Shown here: positions 12,505 to 27,013 of the stretch, in pieces
How the letters are laid out: the number at the start of each line of letters is the position of its first letter
Numbering within the stretch: the first letter of the stretch is position 1
IMG/VR virus record: IMGVR_UViG_3300032285_000620
Span: 1-28,714 of that record
Source: a virus
DNA length: 28,714 bases
Direction: 5' to 3' (one strand)
Notes under the pieces: generated by a model
The model's input: only the letters and a program-made list of their open reading frames with translations
Told to the model about the DNA's origin: nothing
The model's database searches: none
Translations under genes and position numbers: made by a program

Positions 12505-12955
12505 CTTGTTTCTTATTTGGCGCTGGCCGTGCGGTAAGCGCGGGGCTGGGTTCGTGGGCTATGACATCCACCACGTCAGCAGCGCGGCGTTCGGCTTCGG
12601 CGAGAGCGCCGATGATGGAAATGCGCTGGTCTACGTCGACAGTGATGGACTGCTTGGCGACCCAGCCGTGGACGTTCTGCAAGATCGCCAATGAGGCTTT
12701 AGCGTCGCCCTGCTCGGCTGCTTTGTGCAGTTGCTTGGAAGCGGTCAGCTCGCCATCAGCGCGGCCTTTTTGTTCGGCCATCTCAGCGACGGGGTCCATC
12801 TCGCACAACTGACGATAGGCTTTGGGCAGCATTCCAGCCGCCAGGGCTAAGTTGTCGCCTTTCAGCCCGAGCTTGGCGGCGTCATAGATGCGGTTAAGCA
12901 CCGCCTCGGTAGCGCGTATCTCGTTGATGACAAGTGGCAGTGAATGGAAACTCAT
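12479..12955 (-). CDS. Terminase small subunit, putative (158 aa)
   Basis: The small subunit recognises viral DNA and hands it to the motor. From the ATG at 12955 the protein is 158 aa: a helical N-terminus with a possible helix-turn-helix (KLGLKGDNLALAAGMLPKAY, about residues 23-42), a charged helical middle (about 45-85), a segment with LAILQNVHGWVAKQSITVDV, and a disordered basic end. A longer reading frame exists upstream, but its first 65 residues have biased low-complexity text and would cover the promoter, so I prefer 12955. The ribosome site is weak, which leaves some doubt. The call rests mainly on the position before and overlapping with the large subunit. Confidence 0.75.
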   Translation of the reverse strand: MSFHSLPLVINEIRATEAVLNRIYDAAKLGLKGDNLALAAGMLPKAYRQLCEMDPVAEMAEQKGRADGELTASKQLHKAAEQGDAKASLAILQNVHGWVAKQSITVDVDQRISIIGALAEAERRAADVVDVIAHEPSPALTARPAPNKKQDANHQVQR

Positions 12956-12985
12956 ATTCGTATGGCCGCGTGAATGCGTGCGCTC

Positions 12986-13015
12986 ATTGTAAACATAAAG
13001 CTGGTTGTCAGGCAA
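12986..13015 (-). promoter_or_regulatory. Candidate promoter for the late (terminase) operon
   Basis: On the minus strand TTGCCT (13015-13010, 4 of 6 for -35) and TACAAT (12991-12986, 5 of 6 for -10) are 18 bp apart and point at the small terminase gene, whose ATG is about 30 bp further. Pattern matching by eye only. Confidence 0.4.
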
Positions 13016-13263
13016 TTGTTTACGAGTTGCTAAAAAATAAAAAAGTTTTTGCAGACGCTCCGTTACAGCAGGCCCTTTGCGCTCGGCCCTACCCCCTCCC
13101 CCTCGCGGCGAATCCTGTGGGTCATGTGGACTGCCCACATCAAGCCGCAAACCCCCAGCAGATTGTGGACAATGTGGACAACATGCGCGAAGCTGTTAGC
13201 CGCCATCAATGTGGACAATGTGGACAACATGTAGCGGACTCTATGGCGTGAGTGGAGAGGCAT

Positions 13264-13278
13264 CACGCAAAATGCGTG
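13264..13278. repeat. Perfect 6-bp inverted repeat with 3-base loop
   Basis: CACGCA and TGCGTG are separated by AAA. It lies immediately left of the inverted-repeat-bounded tandem 9-mers, so it is part of the structured origin-like region. Confidence 0.6.
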
Positions 13279-13326
13279 GATTTAAAACGTGGACACTGTG
13301 GACACTCTGGACGCTAGTTTTAAATC
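13279..13326. repeat. 10-bp inverted repeat enclosing three tandem 9-mers
   Basis: GATTTAAAAC (13279-13288) and its perfect complement GTTTTAAATC (13317-13326) flank exactly three 9-bp units (13289-13315) plus one base. The AT-rich arms could act as an easily melted segment or as a cruciform stem. Confidence 0.75.
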
Positions 13327-13432
13327 GCTCTACCCCATATTGCCTATTTTTTAAGCAGTTGTTTCAGAAGGTTCAAATAATCAATAGTCCACAATATCCA
13401 CAAAGCGACCCGCAACTAGCAGCCACGCCACA

Positions 13433-13453
13433 TTGAGCGTGGGTCACGCTCAA
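13433..13453. repeat. Perfect 9-bp inverted repeat with 3-base loop
   Basis: TTGAGCGTG and CACGCTCAA are separated by GGT. It is not followed by a T-tract on either strand, so it is probably not a terminator. It may be an operator or an extruded hairpin in the origin-like region. Confidence 0.65.
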
Positions 13454-13590
13454 CTGTTCACATAGTCCAACGACTATCCCGCACGTCCACAATCACGTTT
13501 TTCACCGCCTGGCGTGAAGCGATCCGTTGTTTACCTGGTGGACAACACACAACAAAAAACAACCAAGGGTAAACCCCTAGAAAATAGTTG

Positions 13591-13617
13591 TTGACATGTA
13601 AAGAATTCCTGTACAAT
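13591..13617 (+). promoter_or_regulatory. Candidate sigma70 promoter for the rightward small-gene operon
   Basis: TTGACA (13591-13596) is a perfect -35 and TACAAT (13612-13617) a 5-of-6 -10, with a slightly short 15-bp spacer. It points at the gene starting at 13650, and two tandem 9-mers (13643-13660) lie just downstream over the start codon, where a bound protein could repress it. Confidence 0.6.
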
Positions 13618-13649
13618 CACCATATCAACAACCAACTGGAACATCCACA

Positions 13650-13919
13650 ATGTCCACAATCAACAGTTCAAAAATCACATGGTGCGTTATGCAAGGCGAT
13701 GCCGATGATGATTGGCTCACAACGTACTGCGCCGATGGTGACGGCATCGTGCAGGTCATCGTGTCACATCACGGCATCGAATTGTTCGATCAGCTCGACT
13801 TGTGCAAAACATGGGCGACTGACGCTGACATCGGCGCAGTCTTGGAAGCCGCACAGCATTACTTGCAATCCGCTTACCCTGATATTTTTGAAATCGCTGA
13901 ACACCACGAAGGAGTCTGA
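13650..13919 (+). CDS. Hypothetical protein, first gene of rightward operon (89 aa)
   Basis: An 89-residue acidic protein, MSTINSSKITWCVMQGDADD at the start and DIFEIAEHHEGV at the end, with a likely beta-strand first half and a helical second half (ADIGAVLEAAQHYLQSAYPD). No family is recognised. It is the first gene behind the candidate promoter at 13591-13617. The start codon lies inside the last pair of 9-bp repeats, so its expression is likely tied to whatever binds them. As the gene nearest the origin-like region it may be expressed early, but that is inference. Confidence 0.7.
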   Translation: MSTINSSKITWCVMQGDADDDWLTTYCADGDGIVQVIVSHHGIELFDQLDLCKTWATDADIGAVLEAAQHYLQSAYPDIFEIAEHHEGV

Positions 13920-15915: not shown

Positions 15916-18210
15916 TCATTTAACCAGACGCACACTAGACGCGGGCGGCTCCTCCACCATATCCCGGAGGTCTGACTTAGGATAACTCGCCAACTCTGGC
16001 GCGGCGAAAATGTGCTTTTTACTATCGTACCTGCGCGACTTCAGGCGACCCATATCCACCCATCCGGCCTCTTTAAGGGCGTGCAGCAGGGCTGGCTGCA
16101 CGATCTTAACGCTACCCTGAGCCGTACCCTGCAAACGGTCGCAGAGGGCGTGCCAGGGCGCACCAACGACACCCTTGGAAAACTCCCCCAGACGGTTCCG
16201 CATGAGGTCAACCAGGAACGATTCCGCGCCAGACATACCCGCCTCGACCATGATGGCCTTGGCCTCAGTCAACATAGGCGTGGCCCCAGGCGCAAACGCT
16301 GACACGTCACGCTGATGCAGCCAAGCCGCCACGGCGCTCTTGCCGCCGGACTCAAGCCAAGCCCAGATGGCCTCGCCTTCTGCGTCCGTCATGCGCTTGG
16401 CATCCGACCAGATAACAAACCATCGGCGGTCATCAGACGGCAGGTTAATGGCGACACGCTCGTTAGAAAATGCAATGACTTGCAGACGGTTGACCAGATC
16501 GTAAGGAGCCAAGCCCTTGCGCTGCACCATCAAGAACTCAGGCGGCGCTGCAATCAGGGGCTTGAGGGTGTTTTCGAGCGCCCTTCTATCCTTGGCCTCA
16601 GACTGGCGCAATTCGTTAATGACCAGCACCTCGGTTTCAAGGGCGTAACCCCATTGAGAGGTTACCTCCTCATTACGCACAAGGGACACGTTACGCAAGG
16701 CGTTGCCCCCAATCGCGTAAAAGAACGGTGCCCACATGGTGTCTTTACCCGACCCAGGGTTGCCGCCATGCAGCACGGCGTGGTTGATCTTCTTCTCGGG
16801 GTGCTGCACTTTGAACGCCATCACGCTCAACACATGCGCGCGCTCTTTAGCGTCAGGAATCATGCGCTCCACATGGTCAAGCCACGGCTTTACGTTGCCA
16901 GCCACAGGGGTGGGGCGGGCGTTGCGCCAGCGGTTGCCGTAGACGATGCCGTCACGTGAGCAGAGGATTGACTCGCCCGCAGCGTAGGTTACGCCCTTCA
17001 AGATGCGCGCGCCCTTGGCTTGGCGGTTTTCGTCAAAGCAGGTGCCCGCCTCGATCTTGGGGCGCTTGCCGTGGATACTGTTGCAGGCGACATGGCGAAA
17101 GATCGCGTTGAACGACTGCCGCGACACCTCATGGCGCTCGACCAAATCAAAAAAGGCATCATCGTCTTGCAGATACGCGAAGCGCTCATACCAGCCATCC
17201 TTCTCAAGCCGCCCGAGTTCCTTGCGCTCGACCTCTGCCACCACGTCGGCTACCACATCGGGGAACTCAGGCGTGGGTGTAAGTTTGGAGAGCGCAGACT
17301 CCATCGCCGCCGTGAGCAGTTCCTCACGCAGTCCAGGCGTATGCTTGGGGCCACCGTTGTCGGCGACCCACTGAAGGAAGTCACGGCTACCAAAGTCAAT
17401 GCAATGGCTGTGCAGGCACGTATACGCCCGATTAGCGGGCATATAACGGCCCTCTGGGTTGCCGTCGGTATGCTCGGCACTGTTGGGGCACATCACGCCA
17501 GCCCAGCCCTCCTGATTAGGCCGCGACAGCAGCAGGCCGTTTTCTGACAGCCAGACCATCACATCGTCTGTGCCATCGTCTGAGATACGAATCGGCTTGT
17601 ATGCGTCGCCAGCCACGGCGCTGGGCGTTACGTTCAGGGCTTTGCAGATTTCTTCCAGTGTGAAGTCACGCTCGGGGTGGAACTCACGCAAAATTGACCG
17701 AAACGAATCCCGACCAGGTTTGATGTTCACGCTTCCAGGCAGTCGGAAATTACGCACCGCATTGATTGCGCCCTTATCGGTGTAACCCGCCTCGGCAATC
17801 GCAATGATGGCGGCGCTGAACTCGGCCTTGGTCGGCTGCTCACTGAAAACGTAGCCCCACTGGAACGAACCGTCGGACGTTTCCATCTTCCAAGTCGGCT
17901 CAAGCGGCGGCACGGTGGCCTTGGTGCCCACGTCGTCCAGCACCATCACAAGGACGTATTCACAATTCGCCGCTTGGGCGCTGACGTGACCGTCTTTAAA
18001 TCGGTCAACGATAAAGCTGGCGGTGTTGCCGTAGATCGCCCAGTCGGGTTTGATCTTGGCTGTGGGCAGCATGGCGGGCCATGTGCATTTGATCGCGCCG
18101 TCGGCGTGGTATTGATATTGACCGTCCTTCAGTTGTGGCTTTTGACGCACAACGAGGAATGTTTCGCCTTCAGGCGCTAATGCGCTTAAAAACTCTGTAA
18201 AATCGGACAT
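15916..18210 (-). CDS. Primase-helicase, AEP-type primase plus SF3-like helicase (764 aa)
   Basis: It probably primes and unwinds DNA at the phage fork. The N-terminal region resembles archaeo-eukaryotic primases of replication proteins: VMVLDDVGTK (about residues 88-97, acidic pair D92-D93) and RNFRLPGSVNIKPGR (163-177). A possible zinc site follows (C241, H247, C265, C270). The C-terminal helicase has Walker A HGGNPGSGKDT (481-491), Walker B VLVINEL (528-534), and an arginine-rich sensor region with FSNERVAINL and DDRRW (581-597), as in D5/DUF5906-type helicases. It is the last gene of the leftward replication operon, ending at a strong terminator. It could initiate at the repeat array, but no direct evidence links them. 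Confidence 0.88.
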   Translation of the reverse strand: MSDFTEFLSALAPEGETFLVVRQKPQLKDGQYQYHADGAIKCTWPAMLPTAKIKPDWAIYGNTASFIVDRFKDGHVSAQAANCEYVLVMVLDDVGTKATVPPLEPTWKMETSDGSFQWGYVFSEQPTKAEFSAAIIAIAEAGYTDKGAINAVRNFRLPGSVNIKPGRDSFRSILREFHPERDFTLEEICKALNVTPSAVAGDAYKPIRISDDGTDDVMVWLSENGLLLSRPNQEGWAGVMCPNSAEHTDGNPEGRYMPANRAYTCLHSHCIDFGSRDFLQWVADNGGPKHTPGLREELLTAAMESALSKLTPTPEFPDVVADVVAEVERKELGRLEKDGWYERFAYLQDDDAFFDLVERHEVSRQSFNAIFRHVACNSIHGKRPKIEAGTCFDENRQAKGARILKGVTYAAGESILCSRDGIVYGNRWRNARPTPVAGNVKPWLDHVERMIPDAKERAHVLSVMAFKVQHPEKKINHAVLHGGNPGSGKDTMWAPFFYAIGGNALRNVSLVRNEEVTSQWGYALETEVLVINELRQSEAKDRRALENTLKPLIAAPPEFLMVQRKGLAPYDLVNRLQVIAFSNERVAINLPSDDRRWFVIWSDAKRMTDAEGEAIWAWLESGGKSAVAAWLHQRDVSAFAPGATPMLTEAKAIMVEAGMSGAESFLVDLMRNRLGEFSKGVVGAPWHALCDRLQGTAQGSVKIVQPALLHALKEAGWVDMGRLKSRRYDSKKHIFAAPELASYPKSDLRDMVEEPPASSVRLVK

Positions 18211-26382: not shown

Positions 26383-26693
26383 CACAAGATGAAATCATTG
26401 AGATGGCGCGAGAGGCTGGCCTCCATATCGCAACAGATGTGAATTGGATGCCTGTTATTGGGCTTGAATACGCTGAGAAGTTTGCCAAGCTGGTAGAAAA
26501 GAAAACGCGCGACCACATCACGAATCTGGTTGATGAATACGATGGCTGGATTGGAGATCGCATCAGAGAGGATGCAGGTGAAACAATTGAGCAACTGCCT
26601 GATGTAGATCGTGCCGCACTGTTGCAGGAGTTACTGCCCGAGATTCAAAAAACTTTTAATTTGGCATACACGAAATACAAGGAGCAAGAGTGA
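26379..26693 (+). CDS. Hypothetical protein, MTxDEIIxMAREAGL type (104 aa)
   Basis: A 104-residue acidic, mostly helical protein, MTQDEIIEMAREAGLHIATD, then VNWMPVIGLEYAEKFAKLVE and a C-terminal part LLQELLPEIQKTFNLAYTKY plus KEQE. It is related at the N-terminus to the protein at 25202. AAGGAGCAAG precedes the start, the same start cassette seen before several nearby genes. No enzymatic motif. It probably belongs to a widespread phage accessory family of unknown role. Its stop overlaps the GTG of the next gene. Confidence 0.75.
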   Translation: MTQDEIIEMAREAGLHIATDVNWMPVIGLEYAEKFAKLVEKKTRDHITNLVDEYDGWIGDRIREDAGETIEQLPDVDRAALLQELLPEIQKTFNLAYTKYKEQE

Positions 26694-27013
26694 TTGAAGA
26701 TTTAAAAGATATGGCCAAAGCCACGGGCATGACACTGCTGTTTCTTGTAATCGCAGCGGGCATATTGGCTACGGGGTTCTCGTTTCTTAAATATTTTGCG
26801 GAGCCATCCCCTGAGTACAAAGCCGCAGCACGAGTTCCACAACTCATGTCCGAAGCCGATGGCTGCAAGGTCTACCGCTTTGTGGACAACGGCACGCACT
26901 ACTTCACGCGCTGCGGCGCACAGGTAGAGACTGTCCGTAACTACACAGAAAACTGCGGCAAGGCCTGCACACGCCACCGTACCGAAACAATCACTACCGA
27001 GGGCAATCAGTGA
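26690..27013 (+). CDS. Membrane protein with Cys-rich outer part (107 aa)
   Basis: From a GTG at 26690 (AAGGAGCAAGA before it) the protein has 107 residues: a short cytoplasmic start, one hydrophobic helix (about 13-35, GMTLLFLVIAAGILATGFSF), then a soluble part with four Cys (GCKVYRF, YFTRCG, NCGKACTR). Paired Cys outside the membrane suggest disulfides in the periplasm. The GCKVYRFxDxGxxxYFTRC text recalls a small phage family (DUF4884-like), from memory. Function unknown; inner-membrane proteins in this region may exclude other phages. The TGA overlaps the next GTG. Confidence 0.75.
   Translation: MIEDLKDMAKATGMTLLFLVIAAGILATGFSFLKYFAEPSPEYKAAARVPQLMSEADGCKVYRFVDNGTHYFTRCGAQVETVRNYTENCGKACTRHRTETITTEGNQ

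Follow-up and report, generated by a model that had tools for sequence, protein, structure and literature searches.

A tandem 9-bp repeat array that changes together with the winged helix of a phage primase-helicase, a probable replication origin

Pairs of a replication initiator and its iterons are usually known singly. In the Rep proteins of SaPIs the iterons are read by the C-terminal domain, and the isolated C-terminal domain of Cch2 binds its own repeats (PMC7581432). In P4 alpha a winged helix binds the repeats of the origin (PMC4234260), and the origins of Gram-negative PICIs hold an AT-rich region between two iteron sets (PMC6092414). In the PLE-ICP1 system, the Odn nuclease reads iterons and selects for escape or iteron change.

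We analyzed a window of 28,714 nucleotides, a 28.7-kb fragment of a freshwater phage genome, in comparison with hundreds of related phages. The window carries a cluster of 9-bp repeats that is very probably the start point of phage DNA replication, and a primase-helicase, named HEL here, that we propose as the initiator. As with the Rep proteins of SaPIs and PICIs (SaPI5 PriRep1, SCCmec Cch2), HEL is a D5-group-related primase-helicase whose C-terminal domain is the predicted iteron reader, and two iteron sets around an AT-rich region are also found in the window and its relatives. Unlike those elements, the phages considered here are seemingly lytic and podovirus-like with their own family-A polymerase, the array stands about 2.3 kb from the HEL gene and not directly downstream of it, and its repeats are 9-10-bp direct tandem pairs whose unit switches across a large family. 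P4 alpha likewise joins a primase-helicase to a winged-helix domain, which in HEL is predicted to bind the origin; its primase is of the TOPRIM type (PMC4234260), whereas the N-terminus of HEL resembles archaeo-eukaryotic primases. The initiator and iterons of PLE also diversify together, but PLE RepA belongs to the unrelated RepA_N family and PLE is a satellite, not the phage itself. An origin mechanism of the P4 alpha or SaPI Rep kind is the best reading of the locus.

In the window, terS runs leftward from a conserved start codon (ATG 12955), and the genes of the early operon are read rightward. Since the terS of relatives begins MSFHSLPL, that is, at 12955, positions 12956-13649 are non-coding; the first-pass annotation had rightly seen a non-coding stretch between divergent operons, which is longer than it had claimed. 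A promoter scan was unremarkable. Elsewhere in the window, an ORF that by eye resembles an HNH homing endonuclease (2325-2885, +) runs counter to the structural genes, on the other strand. The features of the intergenic region and the array are the following:

12956-13649, no strand: intergenic region, proposed origin region (array beside terS kept across terS relatives)
13125-13133, +: single unit TGTGGACTG, with TGTGGGTCA just before it at 13116
13164-13181, +: tandem pair TGTGGACAA TGTGGACAA
13210-13227, +: tandem pair TGTGGACAA TGTGGACAA
13288-13314, +: left inner arm, CGTGGACAC TGTGGACAC and a degenerate third unit overlapping CTGGACGCT
13306-13384, no strand: AT-rich centre and proposed melting site (from the GC content of centres in the family and the clustering of gaps), 79 bp from one inner arm to the other, containing TTTTAAATCGCT (13318-13329)
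13385-13402, -: right inner arm, TGTGGATAT TGTGGACTA, reversed
13483-13491, -: lone reverse unit TGTGGACGT
13537-13545, +: lone forward unit GGTGGACAA
13641-13658, -: reverse tandem pair spanning the start codon of the gene at 13650

Thirteen units related to TGTGGACAA and starting [TGC]GTGGA lie between the leftward terminase and the rightward early genes, mostly as strict 9-bp tandem pairs (forward 13164/13173, 13210/13219 and 13288/13297; reverse 13385/13394 and 13641/13650). The count of a dozen GTGGACAAY copies made at first pass holds if degenerate units are included; literally, only five stand in the region (13165, 13174, 13211, 13220, 13538), with one more outside (26882) and 0.47 expected per window. 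Counted over the two strands together, TGTGGAC occurs 9 times within 13100-13665 (566 bp) and 11 times in the full window; against the 9 observed, 3000 Markov copies of the region averaged 0.19 and none held more than 3. GTGGAC pairs in 9-bp tandem were found three times in the array region and nowhere else in the window. The strict tandem spacing, the AT-rich stretch (13306-13384) and the arrangement of forward units on the left and reverse units on the right had all been described correctly, with the forward single unit at 13537 as the exception to the last. So had the last pair, which spans ATG 13650; in L002, too, the homologous gene begins within a repeat. A single exact TGTGGACAA beyond the array lies at 26881-26889, within the gene at 26690-27013. 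The left inner arm is flanked by a perfect 10-nt inverted repeat, GATTTAAAAC / GTTTTAAATC, at 13279-13288 and 13317-13326.

A search of the viral collection returned more than 300 relatives of the window terS; G035 and G040, in which terS is seemingly absent, probably masked by gene calling, were left out. Most of the best 80 of these relatives carry the same array upstream of terS, and others have, at the same place, equally dense tandem repeats of TGTAAGTCA, of TGTTGGCTA or of TGTGGGTCA with a 10-bp step. Across the family the units used are TGTGGAC, TGTTGGC, TGTAAGTCA or TGTGNGTCA. The layout is kept: 9- or 10-bp tandem pairs, whose spacing proved conserved when this suggested check was run, form two arms that face inward around an AT-rich centre, and the degenerate third unit of the left inner arm is frequent. 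Over 91 unique centres in relatives, the GC content is 0.29-0.39, compared to 0.52-0.55 in the surroundings. The gaps between inner arms cluster at about 78, 90, 100 and 111 bp (79 bp in the window), with a best period of 10.5-10.75 bp (R 0.62, uncorrected for relatedness). Immediately inside the left arm there is often TTTAAATCG; TTTAAA or AAATCG was found within the first 40 bp of 42/91 unique centres against a background of 0.027 per 40 bp, an enrichment that is somewhat inflated because the choice of arm pairs favoured centres carrying the element. As the units are swapped while the arm layout and the helical-turn steps of the gap are retained, the geometry is kept and the letters change.

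HEL, whose features are listed below, gave a profile match to PF19263 (E 1.8e-11) and, in a profile search, to the NrS-1 primase-helicase 6k9c (E 1.6e-10).

15916-18210, -: HEL, 764-aa DUF5906 primase-helicase, Walker A near residues 482-490, proposed initiator (profile and fold matches)
15952-16263, -: winged-helix domain at the HEL C-terminus, residues 650-753 (AlphaFold2 domain model)
16018-16041, -: wing loop KSRRYDSK, HEL residues 724-731, covarying with the unit (covariation and model)

Foldseek on the HEL model retrieved NrS-1 (6.4e-16), SaPI5 PriRep1 (about 2e-7; 7pds, 7ola) and, by fold, pox D5/E5; by DUF5906 profile and by fold, HEL has the SF3/D5-type ATPase of such primase-helicases. 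The NrS-1 primase-polymerase-helicase is the closest solved relative of the helicase part, at a low overall identity of about 16%, and is not known to have an iteron origin. No Pfam match to TOPRIM was found in HEL; its N-terminus matched by fold an archaeo-eukaryotic-type PrimPol (S-2L 6zp9, E 9.7e-7, on a low-pTM model), and the assignment of this N-terminal primase is tentative because the full-length model is poor (pTM 0.41). The C-terminal domain was modeled better (pTM 0.70, core pLDDT 82-95), in the order alpha-beta-alpha-alpha-beta-wing-beta, with residues 705-714 as the third helix and 724-731 as the wing loop. Its structural matches are winged-helix proteins, weak at Z 4-6 (up to 6.2); the P4 origin-binding domain is absent from them, an absence that excludes nothing. 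Contigs of a Rhodoferax genome bin contain close relatives of HEL. Rhodoferax phage P26218, a candidate for a cultured relative, was rejected; according to its paper it has a DnaB-like helicase, and the phage is absent among the HEL matches listed.

We then analyzed which protein follows the unit. Over 23 related contigs the C-terminal part of HEL differed by unit type, and no strong difference of this kind was observed for the polymerase, the SSB-like protein, the SNF2 helicase or TerS. We gathered 298 HEL C-termini, 142 of them unique with enough, or nearly enough, downstream DNA. At residues 722-731, R[LIV]KSR.[YFH][DE] goes with TGTGGAC (type A), RIASRDYL with TGTAAGT (type B), RLASR.[YHF][QGST] with TGTTGGC (type C) and LLKSR[AT] with TGTGNGT at a 10-bp step (type D). 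Read as triples of residues 722/724/729, RKD predicted type A in 64/66 cases, RAL type B in 3/3, RA[QGT] type C in 19/21 and LK[TSP] type D in 28/28; 0.90 of the motif entropy was explained by this triple, and no random triple exceeded 0.78. Residue 729 alone accounted for 0.85-0.89 of the class entropy (five classes), and the best control columns at the same loci reached 0.34 for TerS, 0.31 for TerL and 0.38 for the HEL N-terminus. Since TerS adjoins the array, simple linkage would have favoured TerS over HEL. Residues 687, 701, 705 and 713 of HEL covary with the unit as well. An earlier view of the covarying stretch as a recognition helix was dropped, the models placing it in the wing hairpin.

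DNA-only scans of the viral collection, independent of how the HEL set was gathered, gave the same pairing. Loci with type-A tandem repeats yielded 42 unique HEL, each with K724 and D/E729 (42/42), and those with type-C repeats 31 HEL, 17 of them new, each with A724 (31/31). On a tree built from HEL residues 1-640, leaving out the C-terminal domain, we counted at least 15 switches of unit class, and the wing changes with the unit in 8/8 independent contrasts (p 0.008). In pairs that are about 92% identical outside the wing, for example L259 and L157, both wing and unit differ. Exceptions were also observed: for 11 HEL sequences, a search of the downstream DNA turned up no array; one wing, RIKSRDYDSK, occurs with GGAC or GGGC units (L403 versus L404); and type-B repeats accompany other wings, LVMCREYTTK, LVMSRDYTTK and RLMSRDYPSK (L474, L482, L484, L488, L490, L492). 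Because of these missing arrays, same-wing unit differences and several type-B wings, the wing is to be seen as the main and not the sole determinant. In L307, L310, L312, L313 and L316, which share one backbone and the wing RLASREYQTK, the arrays are weak and mixed, and a unit switch is possibly now under way. In L018, L065, L083 and L084, TGTGGATAA, which matches the DnaA box exactly, is the commonest array unit, and the wing is the usual K724 / D729. Overall, this strong covariation points to the C-terminal domain of HEL as the putative specific reader of the iterons.

The repeats had been proposed as DnaA boxes, in which case host DnaA would bind the units and start or regulate replication there. 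The type-A unit is indeed one base away from the DnaA box of oriC (TTGTCCACA against TTATCCACA), and exact TGTGGATAA units exist in the four relatives just named; the exact TTATCCACA, however, is found nowhere in the window, and the units, unlike the DnaA boxes of oriC, stand in strict 9-bp tandem and covary with a phage protein. Close relatives keep the place and layout of the array with units other than DnaA boxes (TGTTGGCTA, TGTAAGTCA, TGTGNGTCA), and a match to the DnaA box consensus fails at the scale of the family, since none of types B, C and D has a DnaA box as its unit. Host DnaA thus cannot be the common reader, and since the repeat sequence shifts with a few wing residues, HEL is indicated in its place; we hold the DnaA reading to be very unlikely. 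A phage protein with DnaA domain IV was rejected as binder, PF08299 being absent from the window; in 40 records with related or motif-bearing loci, this profile gave a single match, below cut-off, in a 222-kb record. The HTH protein encoded at 27010, also suggested at first pass, was rejected as a general binder because it is too patchy, its family having been found in only 6/23 compared contigs, though many of these contigs are fragments.

The position of the array between divergent operons, with one pair over a start codon, would also suit an operator cluster for divergent promoters, an early/late switch bound by HEL or another regulator while replication starts elsewhere. An origin fits better with arms that face inward around an AT-rich centre, with helical phasing and with covariation with a replicative helicase, and we judge an operator cluster alone unlikely; autoregulation could exist alongside the origin role. 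The array could also be a packaging site (pac or cos) that the neighbouring small terminase recognizes: it lies directly upstream of terS, and sites bound by terminase are often close to terS. Yet no TerS column tracks the unit type (best 0.34 versus 0.89 for HEL), and the best conserved TerS stretch of type A is 0.93-0.96 identical to its counterparts in types B, C and D; in view of this lack of covariation TerS was rejected as the binder, and a packaging site seems extremely improbable. The cumulative GC-skew minimum, looked for at 13.3 kb, was found at 21.9 kb, and lies off the array in most relatives.

Both the candidate origin of the first-pass annotation and its suggestion of iteron-like repeats, possibly bound by a phage protein, are supported. 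We consider it likely, with good confidence, that the array is a replication origin whose 9-bp iterons are bound by the winged helix of HEL, with specificity set by the wing (724-731) and helices 2-3 (687, 701, 705, 713). HEL would bind the iterons through its C-terminal winged-helix domain, and its multimers would assemble on the two inward-facing arms. After melting of the AT-rich centre by HEL, two of its helicase rings would load, start priming and pass to the family-A polymerase of the phage (18265-20223), so that replication would begin at the array.

The family, in which 125 unique HEL sequences have a linked array and several near-identical backbones bear different wings, offers an unusually large natural set of initiators and iterons for a direct test of how and why an initiator changes its origin sequence without losing function. 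It also calls for caution: DnaA-like 9-mers in phages should not be called DnaA boxes before relatives are compared. Tentatively, the wing residues may form a partly readable code for the unit and its 9/10-bp step, and the repeated joint switches may form replication compatibility groups, possibly escaping origin-directed nucleases, satellites or competitors. By analogy with PLE-ICP1, and as speculation, joint switching could be driven by conflict between phages or by their compatibility. In the distant relative MW202483, repeats of the TGTTTAC type occupy the corresponding place. This genome also encodes (L012:7083-7379) a free-standing protein of 98 aa that consists of the DnaA DNA-binding domain only (PF08299, E 1e-17).
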